This document shows positions 23,371 to 40,460 of a stretch of DNA of 51,939 nucleotides, one piece after another; the first letter of the stretch is position 1; each line of letters opens with the position of its first letter. A program made the translations under genes and the position numbers. Source of the DNA: an uncultured bacterium (GTDB lineage Bacteria > UBP6 > UBA1177); contig CAJOFY010000016.1 of the NCBI GenBank assembly GCA_905233945.1, positions 1 through 51,939 on the forward strand. The letters are read 5' to 3'. The notes under the pieces are model-generated. The model ran no database searches. It saw nothing but the letters and a program-made list of their open reading frames with translations, and was not told where the DNA came from.

Positions 23371-23381
23371 CAAATTTATTG

Positions 23382-23711
23382 ATAAATTAAAAAAAAGAGT
23401 GATAAGAGCGAGTTTTGTCACGGCGGCGGCGCCGGGCTCTTGAAATTAAGGAGGATTTTATGAATAAAGAAGACAAACTCGTTATCGCGGGGCATGAGTT
23501 CTCGTCCCGTTTCATTCTTGGTTCTGGAAAATATTCGATGAAACTTATCGAAGCGGCGGTGAAGTATGCCGGTGCGGAAATCATCACGCTTGCCGTCAGA
23601 CGCGCCAATTCCAAGGAGCACGAAAGCATTCTCGACTATATTCCGAAAGGGGTTACGCTTCTTCCGAACACTTCAGGAGCGAGAAACGCCGAGGAGGCTG
23701 TCAGAATCGCG
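23382..23711 (+). pseudogene. thiG 5' fragment (first 84 codons) with its upstream region
   Basis: From ATG 23460 to 23711 the translation equals the first 84 residues of the intact ThiG at 39687 except for two of the first four residues. DNA identity is only roughly 85-90% and nearly all changes are silent. About 75 bases upstream are also related (TTTATTGATAAAT, AGAGTGATAA). At 23711 the match stops abruptly and the frame runs into the 3' side of an opposing lipoprotein gene, ending at 23867. ThiG needs about 250 residues, so this is a remnant. Confidence 0.88.
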
Positions 23712-25969: not shown

Positions 25970-27043
25970 TCACTTTTCTGAATGTGTTTCATTGAAGATT
26001 TCTTTCTGTCGTTCAATTTCATCTGCAAGTTCCTGTTCTGTTGGCAGTAAAGTCAAATATTTGCTTGCAAAAATCTGTTTTGAATCGTTTAGGACTGAAT
26101 ATTTAGCCACAGTTCTGTCTGTTTCAGAGCATAAAAGAATGCCGATAGTCGGATTGTTTTCCTGAGTTTTATAAAGATCGTCGAACAAACGCACATAGAA
26201 ATCCATTTGTCCAACATCTTTGTGCGTTAACTGACCCATTTTTAAATCTACAAGCACGAAGCATTTAAGAACAAAATTGTAAAACACCAGATCAATGTAG
26301 AAATCTTCGCTTTCTGTTCTCACAAGTTTTTGTCTTTCCACAAAAGCGAAACCTTTACCCATTTCTAGAAGAAATTTTTGAAGAGAATCTATAACTGCTT
26401 GTTCAAAGTCGCTTTCTATGTAACTTTTGTTGGCCGGTAAACTTAAAAATTCAAGCACGTATGGGTTTTTCAGAAAATTCAGTTTGTTATCTTGAAAAAC
26501 TTTTGTTTTTTGCTCCATTTCGTTTTTAACAGGTCCCTTGATCTGCGAACTTAAAAGCCGTTCGTAATACTGTGTCGCAATATTGCGTTCCAAAGTGCGA
26601 ACATCCCAGTTTTGTGCGGCACTTTCGTTGCAATACCACGTTCTTGCGTTTTCCTGCGTCACCCGCATTGCGGCTTTGTAATGGCTCCAAGTCAATATTC
26701 TCCACGCTGTGGAGAATTTCTGCGGGTCAGAGAATTTTTGGTAAAACATCCGGAAATTGTAAAGGCTTTGTGCCGAAAATCCCTTGCCGAATTCTTCTGT
26801 AAGTTCACAAGACAAGTTTTTGATTATTTCCTTTCCGTATTCTGCCCGGTTTCCGCCGTTCTGCTCCTGTATTACTATTCTTTTGCCTGTTAGCCAATAT
26901 GCGAAAATCATTGCGTAATTGACATGATTCTTAACATAATGCCTTGATGTTTCAAAAATTTTCTTTACATCTGAAACATAATCGTTTGTAAATACAATAT
27001 CTGACATTTTTGCTTCGTAGATTATTGAATCATAATCGCTCAT
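25970..27043 (-). CDS. YhcG/DUF1016-family PDDEXK nuclease (copy 1)
   Basis: 357 aa, full length. N-terminal helical DUF1016_N (residues 20-170, with GKRIV, EYGKEII and TWSHYKAAMRV). The C-terminal PDDEXK nuclease fold reads DFYIDLVFYN..LKCFVLVDLKMG..LTHKDVGQMDFYV, with the Asp and D-x-K catalytic residues. DNA-acting enzyme of unknown biological role, usually in accessory islands. The frame can be read back to a GTG at 27052 but ATG 27043 has the better spacing from GGTGG. A perfect inverted repeat lies inside the gene at 26697-26717, just before the TWSHY motif. Confidence 0.85.
   Translation of the reverse strand: MSDYDSIIYEAKMSDIVFTNDYVSDVKKIFETSRHYVKNHVNYAMIFAYWLTGKRIVIQEQNGGNRAEYGKEIIKNLSCELTEEFGKGFSAQSLYNFRMFYQKFSDPQKFSTAWRILTWSHYKAAMRVTQENARTWYCNESAAQNWDVRTLERNIATQYYERLLSSQIKGPVKNEMEQKTKVFQDNKLNFLKNPYVLEFLSLPANKSYIESDFEQAVIDSLQKFLLEMGKGFAFVERQKLVRTESEDFYIDLVFYNFVLKCFVLVDLKMGQLTHKDVGQMDFYVRLFDDLYKTQENNPTIGILLCSETDRTVAKYSVLNDSKQIFASKYLTLLPTEQELADEIERQKEIFNETHSEK
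26697..26717. repeat. In-gene perfect palindrome, DUF1016 copy 1
   Basis: Arms ATTCTCCAC (26697-26705) and GTGGAGAAT (26709-26717) around GCT. On the coding strand it encodes FSTAWRI directly before LTWSHY. Confidence 0.9.
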
Positions 27044-27052
27044 AGATGCCAC

Positions 27053-35809: not shown

Positions 35810-35902
35810 GGTCACAAACTGTGACCTCAAAAACCTGCGGGCGAGCCGCCATGATATTGAGACGCACCACGGCACAGAGACGCCATGATATGACGTCTCT
35901 AC
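35810..35902. repeat. Dispersed island repeat, copy A
   Basis: Starts with the palindrome GGTCACA-AAC-TGTGACC, then TCAAAAACCTGCGGGCGAGC and a tail ending GACGTCTCTAC. Related copies at 36222-36314, 37663-37756, 38663-38711 (5' half) and 39525-39562 (core and tail end). Confidence 0.88.
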
Positions 35903-35968
35903 AGGATGCAGGGCGGTGGAATCCGTAGATTATTTTGTGGCACCAATAAAATTTTTCTTAAATAAATC

Positions 35969-35997
35969 TTGACAAAGCCTATTTTAAATTATATATC
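35969..35997 (+). promoter_or_regulatory. Promoter of the candidate small RNA
   Basis: Consensus TTGACA (35969-35974), a 17-base spacer, TATATC (35992-35997). Confidence 0.7.
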
Positions 35998-36002
35998 GCG
36001 TT

Positions 36003-36063
36003 CAATGCAACGCCATTCTTTCTTGAATGGTTATGAGCCACGCCTGTCGTGGCTCTTTTTTTT
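36003..36063 (+). ncRNA. Candidate small RNA with two hairpins and own terminator
   Basis: About 60 bases between a strong promoter and a strong terminator. Hairpin 1: CCATTC (36013-36018), loop TTTCTT, GAATGG (36025-36030). Hairpin 2: GAGCCACG (36035-36042), CCTGT, CGTGGCTC (36048-36055), followed by eight T. No start codon with a ribosome site lies inside. Not recognised as a known family. It lies 385 bases beyond the tracrRNA on the same strand. Confidence 0.6.
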
Positions 36064-36221
36064 GGCTTTGTTTTAATATTAAAATAATTACAAACGCTTT
36101 GAAAATGCGGTTATGCCGGACAATGTATCAACTGCGGAAGGCAAGATATATTCCATCCCTGCAGAGTGGAAAGAGAAGCAGTGTTTCCAGAAATTTTAGT
36201 TACTTCGGAAACGCCGAACAG

Positions 36222-36314
36222 CTCACACAAGCTGAACCTCAAAAACCTGCGGGCGAGCCGCCATGATATTGAGACGCACCACGGCACAGAGAGACCATGG
36301 TATGACGTCTCTAC
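36222..36314. repeat. Dispersed island repeat, copy B
   Basis: Same unit as copy A, but the 5' palindrome is replaced by GCTCACACAAGCTGAACC; the rest from TCAAAAACCTGCGGG to GACGTCTCTAC is nearly identical. Confidence 0.85.
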
Positions 36315-36340
36315 GGGAAAAACAGATAATCTGGTTTTAT

Positions 36341-36544: not shown

Positions 36545-37585
36545 ATGAAAGAAAATGCTATCTACATCAAAACAGGTGACATCGTCGAAGATGCCCGCAA
36601 AATCATTGAAAGAGCCCGGAGCAATGCCGTTAGAAGCGTGGATTTCTGCCGCGTTCAGATGTATTGGAACTTGGGAAAACGAATCCTGGAAGAAGAACAG
36701 GAAGGCAAGGAAAGAGCTGATTACGGAAGTTATATTATCAAAAATCTTGCTGTTCAGCTGGAAGCAGAATACGGCAGCGGATTTTCTGAAAGACAATTAA
36801 AATTTTGCAGGCAATTTTATCGCGTTTATCCAATTGGGAACGCACTGCGTTCCCAATTAAACTGGATGCAATATCGCCTACTTATTCAAATTTCCGATCC
36901 CTATAAGCGCGAATACTATGAACTGGAATCTGTGAACAACTGCTGGACAGGGCGAGAAACGGAACGACAGATAAACAGCCAACTTTACGAACGGCTTCTG
37001 CTCAGCAACGACAAAGAAACCCTTCTTGCAATCGCCCGCAGAGAACGCATCCCGGAAACGCCGCAGGAAATCATAAAAGAGCCTATGCTTCTTGAGTTTC
37101 TGGGACTTGAAGCAAAACCATCTTACTACGAAAACGATCTGGAAAGCGCGATAATTTCGCATATAGCCGATTTTCTGCTTGAAATGGGAAAAGGTTTTTC
37201 TTTCGTGGCGAGACAAAAAAGGATCATGCTTGAAGACGACGAGTTTTTCATTGACCTTGTTTTTTACAACAGGCTGCTGCGCTGTTTCGTGATCATCGAA
37301 CTGAAAACCGGTAAAATCACTCATCAGGATCTCGGACAGATGCAGATGTATGTCAATTATTACGACCGAATAGAAAAACTTCCGGATGAAAATCCGACTA
37401 TCGGGATCCTGCTCTGCACGAGCAAAAACGATACTGTCGTAAAAATGACTCTGCCGCAGGACAACAAAACCATTCTTCCGAAAGAATATCAGCTTTATCT
37501 GCCGACATCGGAAGAGTTGGTGAAGGAAATAAACGAGGCAAAGCAAATCGCTGAAGAGACAAAAAACGAAGGGGATGATCTCTGA
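36545..37585 (+). CDS. YhcG/DUF1016-family PDDEXK nuclease (copy 2)
   Basis: 346 aa, full length. DUF1016_N helical region (residues 10-160; GKRILEEEQ, ADYGSYIIKNL, GFSERQLKFCRQFY). PDDEXK core FFIDLVFYNRLLRCFVIIELKTGKITHQDLGQMQMYV with catalytic Asp and E-x-K. AGGGGA lies 5 bases upstream of the ATG. Differs strongly in sequence from copy 1, so these are not a recent duplication. Carries a perfect 27-base inverted repeat at 36832-36858 at the position equivalent to that in copy 1. Role unknown; possibly defence-related by neighbourhood. Confidence 0.87.
   Translation: MKENAIYIKTGDIVEDARKIIERARSNAVRSVDFCRVQMYWNLGKRILEEEQEGKERADYGSYIIKNLAVQLEAEYGSGFSERQLKFCRQFYRVYPIGNALRSQLNWMQYRLLIQISDPYKREYYELESVNNCWTGRETERQINSQLYERLLLSNDKETLLAIARRERIPETPQEIIKEPMLLEFLGLEAKPSYYENDLESAIISHIADFLLEMGKGFSFVARQKRIMLEDDEFFIDLVFYNRLLRCFVIIELKTGKITHQDLGQMQMYVNYYDRIEKLPDENPTIGILLCTSKNDTVVKMTLPQDNKTILPKEYQLYLPTSEELVKEINEAKQIAEETKNEGDDL
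36832..36858. repeat. In-gene perfect palindrome, DUF1016 copy 2
   Basis: Arms AATTGGGAACGCA (36832-36844) and TGCGTTCCCAATT (36846-36858) around one base. Encodes IGNALRSQLN just before NWMQYRLLI. Confidence 0.95.
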
Positions 37586-37662: not shown

Positions 37663-37756
37663 GAGATCACAAGCTGAACCTCAAAAACCTGCGGGCGAGC
37701 CGCCATGATAATGAGACGCACCACGGCACAGAGACGCCATGATATGACGTCTCTAC
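37663..37756. repeat. Dispersed island repeat, copy C
   Basis: GAGATCACAAGCTGAACC then TCAAAAACCTGCGGGCGAGC through to GACGTCTCTAC; differs from copy A mainly in the 5' palindrome and one base (ATAATGAG). Confidence 0.85.
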
Positions 37757-37889
37757 GAGAAAAACAGATGAAACAAAAATCTAAAAATAATTTGACTTTT
37801 TAAAATGAATGAATATATTGCAACCATTGAGCTGGTCGAAAGACCCAGGTTCAACCTGATGCGGCGGGCAGACTGACCCGCTCGTTGCG

Positions 37890-38570
37890 GTGGGGATTTT
37901 AAGTATTTTCGTTGACGAAAGCGGAGATTTCGGCACTTACAGCCAGCATTCACCGTATTACATCGTAACAATGGTTTTTCATAATCAAGAAAGCAAAATC
38001 ACAGAACAAATTCAAAAATTGGATCAAGAGATTCTTTCGCTCGGCTACGAAAAAGATTTTGTAATTCATACCGCGCCCCTTATAAGAAAAGAGGAGATGT
38101 TTTCTTCCGTTTCGCCGAACGAACGGCGCGCTTTGTTCACGAAGCTGTTTTATTTCGTTATAAAGTCAGAAATTCACTACAAAACTTTTGTCTTTGAGAA
38201 AAAACAGTTCGAAAATGTTCTCAAACTGGAAGGCAGAATGGCGAAGGAAATTTCTCAATTCATTCGCGGTAATCAGGATTTTTTTCAAAGTTTTGAAAGT
38301 GTGATTTTGTATTATGACAACGGACAGCATGAGCTGAACCGTATTTTGAACACCGTTCTTGCAACGGAACTTTCGCAGTATGATGTGCGGAAGGTTCTTC
38401 CGAAAGATTATAAACTGTTTCAGGCAGCCGACTTGATCTGCACGCTGCAGTTGCTTTCACTCAAATGCGATCGTCACGAACTTTCCCGTTCGGAACAGTT
38501 GATTTTTCACAATGAACGGGAGTTGAAAAAGCAGTTCTTGAAACCCATTAGAAAAAAGAAATTTATGTAA
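37890..38570 (+). CDS. DUF3800 domain-containing protein
   Basis: 226 aa. N-terminal IFVDESGDFG and C-terminal LFQAADLICTLQ are the two acidic signatures of DUF3800, a family with an RNase H-like fold and putative nuclease activity, frequent in mobile and defence regions. The start is taken as GTG at 37890 because an in-frame stop lies at 37857 and no ATG precedes the VDESGD strand; no good ribosome site is seen, so the start is uncertain. Confidence 0.75.
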   Translation: MGILSIFVDESGDFGTYSQHSPYYIVTMVFHNQESKITEQIQKLDQEILSLGYEKDFVIHTAPLIRKEEMFSSVSPNERRALFTKLFYFVIKSEIHYKTFVFEKKQFENVLKLEGRMAKEISQFIRGNQDFFQSFESVILYYDNGQHELNRILNTVLATELSQYDVRKVLPKDYKLFQAADLICTLQLLSLKCDRHELSRSEQLIFHNERELKKQFLKPIRKKKFM

Positions 38571-38638: not shown

Positions 38639-38662
38639 TGGAATTGCCTGAAAACTTTTTGT

Positions 38663-38711
38663 GGTCACAAACTGTGACCTCAAAAACCTGCGGGCGAGCC
38701 GCCCGCGCTAC
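38663..38711. repeat. Dispersed island repeat, copy D (5' half)
   Basis: Palindrome GGTCACA-AAC-TGTGACC and TCAAAAACCTGCGGGCGAGC as in copy A, then diverges to GCCGCCCGCGCTACGAC. Confidence 0.82.
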
Positions 38712-38756: not shown

Positions 38757-39410
38757 TTATTGCTTATCTTTATTTTCCTTGCATTGCAATCTGAAAAATT
38801 CCTTCTGCTGTTCTATTTCTCGGCGCAGTTCCTCTTTTGTCGGCATATAAGTCAGATACTTTGCTGCAAAAAGCTGGTCGTTGCTGCTTAAAACGGAATA
38901 ATGAGCTACATCTTCATCGGTATCGGCGCAAAGCAAGAGACCTATTGTCGGGTTGTGACCTTCAGGCCGAACAAGTTCATCGTATATTTTAATTTGAATC
39001 TGTTCATATAAGTCGGCTGTATAAGTAAGTTCCGTTGTTGCCGGAATAGCTCCAGATTTTCTACTCACTGCGTAGAAAATGTTAGGAAAGTAGTTATAGA
39101 ATGCTGTAAAATGGTAAAGGTTTGCCTTACTGAAACCGCTTCCGAAACGCTTAACCAAATCTTTTGCCAACATTTTTATAACCTCTTCACCGTATTCAGC
39201 ACGTTTACCCTTCAAGATTTCATGCTGAATCCTCAAGCCTAAAAGCCAGTTACGTTTGATAAGGGTTTCATTGATAGCCCGATATGCAACGGTCTGAGCC
39301 TGCTCAATAATCGTGCATGCATCTTTGAACAACTCAACCTGGGATGAGGTGGCTCCGAGTTGGGTGTCTCGAAATTTTTCTTTTAATTTTCCCGATTCAA
39401 CAACTTTCAT
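38757..39410 (-). pseudogene. YhcG/DUF1016 protein lacking the nuclease core (copy 3)
   Basis: 217 aa against about 350 for the family. Residues 1-125 are DUF1016_N (KGKRAEYGEEVIKML, GFSKANLYHFTAFY). The sequence then jumps to the C-terminal end of the nuclease region (NPTIGLLLCADTDEDVAHYSVL, YLTYMPTKEELRREIEQQ). The segment with FYIDLVFYN..LxK, i.e. the PDDEXK catalytic residues, is missing. The frame is intact, so a shortened protein may be made; it cannot be a nuclease. A palindrome (39056-39080) lies at the same place as in the other copies, close to the deletion. Confidence 0.75.
39056..39080. repeat. In-gene palindrome, DUF1016 copy 3
   Basis: Arms ATTTTCTAC (39056-39064) and GTAGAAAAT (39072-39080) around TCACTGC. 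On the coding strand it encodes IFYAVSRK. The core CACTGCG is shared with the palindrome in copy 2. Confidence 0.9.
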
Positions 39411-39524
39411 ATTTCAAACTCCAAAGAAAAATTGTAGATAAATAAAATAGAAATTTTGATAGAAAAATCAAGTTTTATTTAATAATTTTTTGGAAAAATT
39501 GCAAAAATAATATTGAGATAAAAA

Positions 39525-39562
39525 CAACCTGCGGGCGAGCCGCCATGGTATGACGTCTCTGC
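39525..39562. repeat. Dispersed island repeat, copy E (short)
   Basis: ACCTGCGGGCGAGCCGCCAT joined directly to GGTATGACGTCTCTGCGGG; the middle of the unit is missing. Marks the right edge of the accessory island. Confidence 0.75.
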
Positions 39563-39686
39563 GGGAAAAACCGCCTGTATTTATGGGTGAAGGGGGTAAT
39601 TTGCAGTTTTATTGATAAATACAAAAAAAAGAGTGATAAAGCGCCGCTGCGTGTTATCGCAGGATTTTGATCGTTAGGAGGCGATT

Positions 39687-40460
39687 ATGGATAAAAGTGA
39701 CAAACTCGTTATCGCGGGGCACGAATTTTCGTCCCGTTTCATTCTCGGTTCGGGAAAGTATTCGATGAAACTTATCGAAGCGGCTGTGAAGTATGCCGGT
39801 GCGGAGATCATTACTCTGGCAGTGCGCCGCGCCAATTCCAAAGAACACGAAAGCATTTTAGACTATATTCCGAAAGGGGTGACGCTGCTTCCCAACACGT
39901 CAGGAGCCAGGAATGCAGAAGAGGCAGTCAGGATCGCGAGACTTGCAAGGGAGCTCGGCTGCGGTGATTTCGTAAAGATCGAGATCATGCGCGACACGAA
40001 ATACCTCCTTCCTGACAACGCCGAAACGGTGAAGGCGACTGAGATCCTTGCAAAAGAGGGCTTCGTCGTAATGCCTTACATGTATCCTGACCTCAACACG
40101 GCGCGCGACCTTGTGAATGCAGGAGCAGCTTCTGTTATGCCGCTTGCGTCTCCGATCGGCTCGAACAAAGGCTTGTCAACGCGCGATTTCATCCAGATCC
40201 TGATCGACGAAATAGACCTTCCGATAATCGTAGATGCCGGAATAGGCCGCCCGTCGCAGGCATGCGAGGCAATGGAAATGGGTGCCGCGGCGATAATGTC
40301 GAACACCGCTCTGGCCACGGCAGGAGACCTTCCGAAGATGGCCGACGCATTCAGACAGGCGATAGAAGCGGGCAGAAAGGCTTATCTTTCGGGACTCGGC
40401 AGAGTCCTTTCGCGCGGCGGCGCACCGTCAGACACACTTATCGGATTCTTGCACGATTAG
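39687..40460 (+). CDS. thiG: Thiazole synthase ThiG
   Basis: 257 aa, full length. TIM-barrel enzyme that condenses DXP, ThiS thiocarboxylate and dehydroglycine to the thiazole phosphate of thiamine. [20 protein letters not shown] at the start, the Schiff-base Lys in DFVKIEIM (about residue 96), [13 protein letters not shown] and [12 protein letters not shown] with phosphate-binding Gly. GGAGG precedes the ATG. Followed 9 bases later by thiH. A truncated, silently diverged copy of its 5' region lies at 23382-23711. Confidence 0.97.

Follow-up and report, generated by a model that had tools for sequence, protein, structure and literature searches.

Small RNA gene beside the tracrRNA

The window analysed here is a stretch of 51,939 nucleotides of DNA from an uncultured bacterium. 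What looks like a small RNA gene lies on the tracrRNA strand, with cas9 (start 35460) on one side and a DUF1016 gene (36545) on the other, and the question is whether this RNA works with the adjacent CRISPR-Cas system or with something else. A reading of the sequence alone had offered three answers: regulation of the cas genes, an antitoxin RNA, or part of a mobile element. The explanation preferred here, with a probability of roughly 0.68, is that the element consists of a promoter and a ~60-nt RNA belonging to a mobile RNA-RNase module, which would act by a type III-like mechanism, the RNA being orphaned in the window. The features of the element and its borders are listed in Table 1.

Table 1. 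Features of the small RNA element and its borders (positions are those of the window)
Feature	Position	Strand	Basis or remarks
102-nt repeat copy, 5' border of cassette	35814..35915	+	repeat search
-35 hexamer TTGACA	35969..35974	+	sequence; identical in G002, G005 and G013
-10 hexamer TATATC, spacer 17	35992..35997	+	sequence; TATACC in G005
HEC-09/NYN-associated small RNA	36004..36063	+	5' end inferred from promoter, 3' end from terminator
Conserved hairpin CCAUUC-UUUCUU-GAAUGG	36013..36030	+	stem 36013-36018 / 36025-36030; paired in six NYN-linked relatives
Terminator hairpin and U8	36035..36063	+	8 bp GC-rich stem 36035-36055, loop CCTGT, U8 36056-36063
NYN (HEC-09) pseudogene	36077..36199	+	last ~38 codons, no start codon, joined to leader by internal deletion
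102-nt repeat copy, 3' border of cassette	36226..36327	+	repeat search; genome-wide search

The sequence-only reading placed the promoter and the element at 35969-36063, and both are correct: the two hexamers, 17 nt apart, are followed by a strong intrinsic terminator. The 52-kb window has a single site, that of the element, at which a perfect TTGACA is combined with a -10 hexamer matching at four or more of six positions and with a terminator within 90 nt; none of 60 dinucleotide shuffles has any. Two hairpins had been drawn in addition to the terminator. The one at 36013-36030 is conserved, as is the terminator hairpin. The first (GCGTTCAATGCAACGC, 35998-36013) is unsupported because the expected transcript start (~36004) falls inside it, the copy in another genome of the genus (G002) breaks one of its pairs (GCATT) and it is absent from the NYN-linked relatives described below.

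The element matches no Rfam model at the gathering score, and relaxed thresholds give weak chance matches on the terminator only (asX2, ncS54). Because no Rfam model matches, annotation based on Rfam would miss this RNA. A genome search with the element as a single sequence (E-value of 10 or lower) returned, beyond the element itself, AT-rich chance matches only.

A trans-acting small RNA of the CRISPR-Cas locus, either a cas regulator or a second tracrRNA, is suggested by the strand shared with the tracrRNA and by the distance between the two (within 400 bp). Base pairing argues against both roles. Target prediction against the cas mRNAs gave duplex energies no better than those of shuffled RNAs, of which 9-77% pair at least as well with the starts of cas9, cas1, cas2 and csn2, and the proposed cas regulation is left without support. 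Pairing with the CRISPR repeat amounts to -15.4 kcal/mol, compared to -38.2 kcal/mol for the tracr anti-repeat, such that the RNA contains no anti-repeat. Three further genomes of the genus have the element on contigs that showed no match to the cas genes of the window within the 15-17 kb read. A CRISPR role is thus considered very improbable.

NYN gene remnant and copies in the genus

The surroundings of the element had been described as 900 gene-free bases. This is not simply so, as the C-terminus of a NYN gene follows the terminator (Table 1). The remnant matches residues 189-228 of an intact 228-aa protein (E-value in the genome search: 3.2e-17) and has a stop in frame. A genus search found the same ~130 bp at 98% identity in three other genomes. 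In G002 and G013, the promoter and RNA (~110 bp) are located directly 5' of an intact NYN gene of 228 codons, with the RNA terminator ending ~20-25 nt before the NYN ATG. On contig 32 of G002, a copy of the 102-nt repeat and the module (35811-36077) are 97% identical to the window, while the DNA beyond differs. G005 has the same junction as the window at another site, beside a type I methylase gene, and G008 has only the 3' end of the NYN gene, at a contig end. Two similar stretches containing TTAAT bound the deletion in the window gene, the first located after the terminator and the second inside the gene. A search for an intact NYN homolog elsewhere in the window's own genome (99.7% complete) found none. 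Judged from these alignments, what remains in the window is the RNA half of a mobile module of two parts (RNA plus NYN protein), the protein half having been deleted. The mobile-element proposal is therefore well supported by comparison, with the RNA as the partner of a mobile NYN/HEC-09 module.

In the G005 orphan (L021 4485-4610), the leader is joined to an internal ATG, and a possible 40-aa C-terminal NYN peptide would start at the original start position.

Conservation of the RNA structure

The structure of the RNA was examined in an alignment (A4) of six leaders from viral contigs; the NYN proteins encoded behind these leaders share 53-62% identity with the G002 protein. In the upstream hairpin, 100% of cells are paired and 4/6 pairs show changes on both sides; this signal is destroyed when the pairing partners are slid. 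A covariance model (R1) built from these six leaders only, with the window and its genus left out, locates the window element at 36005-36062 with 54.5 bits (E-value: 2.3e-14). The next best site in the 52 kb scores 18.8 bits, and although E-values of such a home-made model are rough, the gap in bit score is large. R1 also recovers the three genus copies. The covariation search proposed along with the original annotation thus gave a positive result, both in the compensatory changes of the hairpin and in the R1 match.

Terminators in front of NYN homologs

Protein sequence was the sole criterion for picking NYN homologs, which came from genomes, plasmids, phages and viral contigs; their upstream regions were inspected afterwards. 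The viral contigs required an alignment as the query, a scan with a single NYN protein having found nothing. In 43 of 78 non-redundant NYN genes, an intrinsic terminator ends 5-45 nt ahead of a start codon, compared to 2 of 165 controls (p = 1e-23); the controls are other genes of these loci that have 60 nt or more of space upstream. Among closer homologs, and with a more sensitive detector, a terminator 5-50 nt before the start was found in 50/66 compared to 8/154 controls (p = 7e-27). In both comparisons the detectors were home-made and the control genes came from the same, mostly prophage, loci. Approximately 10 of the 66 close homologs have no RNA according to the detector, and some of these (e.g. 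L041) show one on inspection.

Plasmid-borne NYN genes of Klebsiella, E. coli and Xanthomonas follow the same pattern, with a terminator 13-26 nt before the annotated start in all six examined. On inspection, most NYN leaders have a sigma-70-like promoter and a hairpin ahead of the terminator. E. coli plasmid pRHB09-C24_5 (CP057926; L167 151-267) carries 33-nt tandem hairpin repeats and a terminator, with the NYN gene 13 nt further on. The leaders of distant homologs have this layout in common but hardly any sequence, and so may not all belong to a single RNA family. A MAFFT alignment of one distant leader group (A7) was too ragged to use, and no Rfam family was matched by those homolog leaders that were scanned. 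On the basis of these genomic associations, the RNA is assigned to the NYN family and not to CRISPR.

Divergent RNA clade

One alternative is that the RNA is only a cis-acting 5' leader, that is, a terminator or attenuator that holds NYN expression down or, through read-through, turns it on, and has no role as a molecule of its own. At most loci the RNA does share the strand of the NYN gene and stops shortly ahead of its start codon, and RCd22, an RNA upstream of the phage gene abiF, also lowers abiF expression in cis (PMC12373285). A cis attenuator should always be on the strand of the gene it controls, but in one clade (L037, L159, L038, L039 and L102) a related two-hairpin RNA is encoded on the strand opposite to the NYN gene. 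These RNAs share the sequence GATAGTATC in the loop region, GACGCC and GTTTC; both-side changes occur in 6/16 pairs, and L159 has a clean TTGACA-16-TATAAT promoter for the divergent RNA. As a divergent RNA is unable to terminate the NYN mRNA, it must act as a separate molecule, at least in this clade. A purely cis-acting leader is also difficult to reconcile with a hairpin conserved ahead of the terminator through compensatory changes, with the orphan copies, which retain the RNA intact without a gene to attenuate, and with the fact that no alternative antiterminator fold was seen. This alternative is regarded as improbable.

NYN protein

The intact G002 protein has the NYN domain PF01936 (above the cut-off) and matches the PADLOC candidate defence family HEC-09 (E-value: 2.3e-45). 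The HEC-09 profile is matched by 15/15 family members tested, and the window itself keeps the C-terminus only. Five acidic residues (D14, E114, D118, D143 and D145) are invariant in 15 diverse members and are predicted to be catalytic. No match was found between the NYN protein and the ToxN domain PF13958. An AlphaFold model (pLDDT 83.7) compared with the PDB using Foldseek gave no match at an E-value of 0.001 or lower, and the protein has a weak sequence match to 2qip (E-value: 6e-5). Because Foldseek returned no PDB match, the fold assignment is based on Pfam, PADLOC and the 2qip sequence match. The protein half of the module is therefore predicted to be a PIN-like NYN ribonuclease and is a candidate anti-phage defence protein.

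Neither an RNA partner of HEC-09 (in open-licence PubMed Central literature or Rfam) nor a description of its mechanism (in open-licence PubMed Central) was found. A linked and structurally conserved RNA gives HEC-09 a concrete mechanism that can be tested, and would place the NYN/PIN-like fold among the RNases that RNA antitoxins control. As small plasmids of E. coli and Klebsiella, prophages and numerous bacterial genomes all carry the RNA-NYN pair, the test is readily done in laboratory E. coli.

Comparison with known systems

The gene order of promoter, short folded RNA, intrinsic terminator and RNase start codon defines type III toxin-antitoxin systems (PMC5086642). Like ToxIN/AbiQ, CptIN and TenpIN, the NYN module has one promoter, a structured RNA and a terminator with the RNase start ~20 nt further on, and it is mobile, being found on plasmids and prophages. 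An RNA upstream of the putative toxin gene under one promoter is seen in G002, G013 and most homologs, the toxin gene of the window being truncated. A Rho-independent terminator between RNA and gene is typical of the homologs, as counted above, and is present in the window. The earlier suggestion of an antitoxin RNA is thus well supported by this type III layout of the NYN/HEC-09 module, with antitoxin function itself being an inference.

The module differs from type III systems in several respects. Its protein is a NYN (PIN-like) RNase and not of the ToxN, CptN or TenpN type. The RNA usually consists of one hairpin plus the terminator hairpin; tandem nucleotide repeats, characteristic of type III antitoxins, are absent from the window leader and nearly all homologs, L167 being the only case with repeats. 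In addition, the RNA is divergent in one NYN clade, and inhibition by the NYN RNA is a prediction. Because toxin fold and repeats both deviate and inhibition is predicted, the module should not be filed as a type III toxin-antitoxin system, even though it would work like one. The missing repeats and the non-ToxN fold count against a type III-like antitoxin. As AvcID shows, the toxin partner of a type III-like RNA antitoxin may have an unrelated fold (PMC10511110).

The genome of the window also encodes a genuine ToxIN module, on contig C28 (L165 1239-2334). This has a promoter, ~34-nt repeats (x2.4) and a terminator close before the ATG of a ToxN protein (PF13958; E-value: 1.2e-45), and its flanking repeats are related to those that border the window element.

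Three other systems bear comparison. RCd22-AbiF of Clostridioides difficile phages (Rfam RF03085) likewise has a short hairpin RNA and terminator directly upstream of an abortive-infection gene in prophages, and its RNA binds the protein and thereby acts in trans as well as in cis (PMC12373285), which is a precedent for the mechanism proposed below. RCd22, however, carries two abiF motifs and its partner AbiF is not a NYN protein; no Rfam model matches the window RNA. The DUF3800 RNAs (Rfam DUF3800-I to -XI) are small structured RNAs just upstream of a nuclease-like gene, but this gene belongs to another protein family and the window element matches none of their models. HEC-09 agrees with the module in the profile matches described above and differs in that PADLOC lists it as a protein model only.

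Proposed mechanism and fate of the orphan RNA

The proposed model for the intact module is as follows. A single promoter would produce large amounts of a short RNA ending at the intrinsic terminator, and occasional read-through would yield the NYN mRNA; in one clade the RNA would instead be transcribed divergently. The folded RNA would bind the NYN RNase and keep it silent, as in type III toxin-antitoxin pairs. Loss of the short-lived RNA, for example upon phage transcription shutdown, would free the RNase, leading to RNA cleavage and arrest of phage growth. Inhibition by the RNA, and activation of the RNase when the RNA is lost in infection, are suggested by the gene order, the comparison with ToxIN, the repeats of L167, the invariant acidic residues and AvcID. 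Location, gene order, terminator frequencies, structure conservation and the deletion are observed directly, and transcription, RNA-protein binding, toxicity and a defensive function are attributed to the module by analogy. A survey of Pseudomonas, in which HEC-09 is linked with phage susceptibility and not resistance (PMC12447246), counts against this model.

The RNA could also be a guide or activating cofactor of the NYN nuclease and not an inhibitor. This would account for the tight linkage of RNA and nuclease and for the structural conservation, and NYN nucleases are able to process RNA (PMC11346440). However, a variable guide-like segment is absent. The terminator layout yields more RNA than protein and is shared with inhibitory type III RNAs (PMC5086642), among them the one at the ToxIN locus of this genome. 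Such a role has only a slim chance of being correct, and inhibition of the RNase by the RNA is preferred.

In the window, the NYN gene is reduced to its last ~38 codons and the RNA is an orphan. It may be either a relic or a retained antidote against incoming modules. That this copy is a remnant of a decayed gene and now functionless is compatible with the proposed model of the module and is given somewhat less than an even chance. The truncated NYN gene with its in-frame stop and absent start codon is consistent with decay, as is the lack of an intact homolog in the genome. Opposed to this is the comparison of the two orphan copies, which lie at different sites. Promoter and RNA are identical at 110/111 positions between the window and G005 (RNA 67/67, promoter region 43/44), compared to 104/121 in the joined NYN tail (p = 1e-4) and 25/43 in the 5' flank. 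Furthermore, the R1 score of the window copy equals that of the G002 copy (L020) beside an intact gene (54.5 bits). Although the numbers are small, this pattern would be expected if selection acted on nothing but the RNA, which might serve, for example, as an antidote to modules that enter the cell. Part of the constraint on the orphan RNA may predate the loss of the NYN gene. With the orphan copies one can address whether RNA antitoxins are retained for protection once the toxin has been lost.

A broader proposal is that HEC-09 is a widespread and hitherto unrecognised class of RNA-controlled NYN RNases, type III-like with a new toxin fold and a short antitoxin RNA free of repeats, and that orphan copies are kept as antidotes that shield the cell from intact modules coming in. 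This is put forward tentatively and is rather doubtful as a whole.

Cassette borders and neighbourhood

A palindrome-containing repeat family occurs in the window at 35814-35915, 36226-36327, 37668-37769, 38655-38703 and 39523-39571. In the manner of cassette borders, these repeats lie between the small RNA remnant, a DUF1016 nuclease gene, a DUF3800 pair and a DUF1016 gene that is broken. In G002 (L020), the intact module has this repeat on its flanks as well. The DUF3800 cassette (37792-38570) consists of a promoter-like site, a DUF3800-XI RNA (Rfam; 37828-37878, 48.1 bits) and, 12 nt later, a DUF3800 gene. It is a second pair of an RNA and a nuclease-like gene, 1.8 kb away from the orphan RNA. 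The DUF1016/YhcG gene at 38757-39410 has an internal deletion that leaves the N-terminal part and the C-terminal end only, and full copies of DUF1016/YhcG are present at 36545-37585 and 25970-27052. Finally, thiG is present twice: a partial copy, with 81% identity over 343 bp, is found 16 kb before the full thiG (23375-23711 and 39608-39938). The CRISPR-Cas locus and the cassettes lie between the two thiG copies, as if an island had been inserted with duplication of its target.
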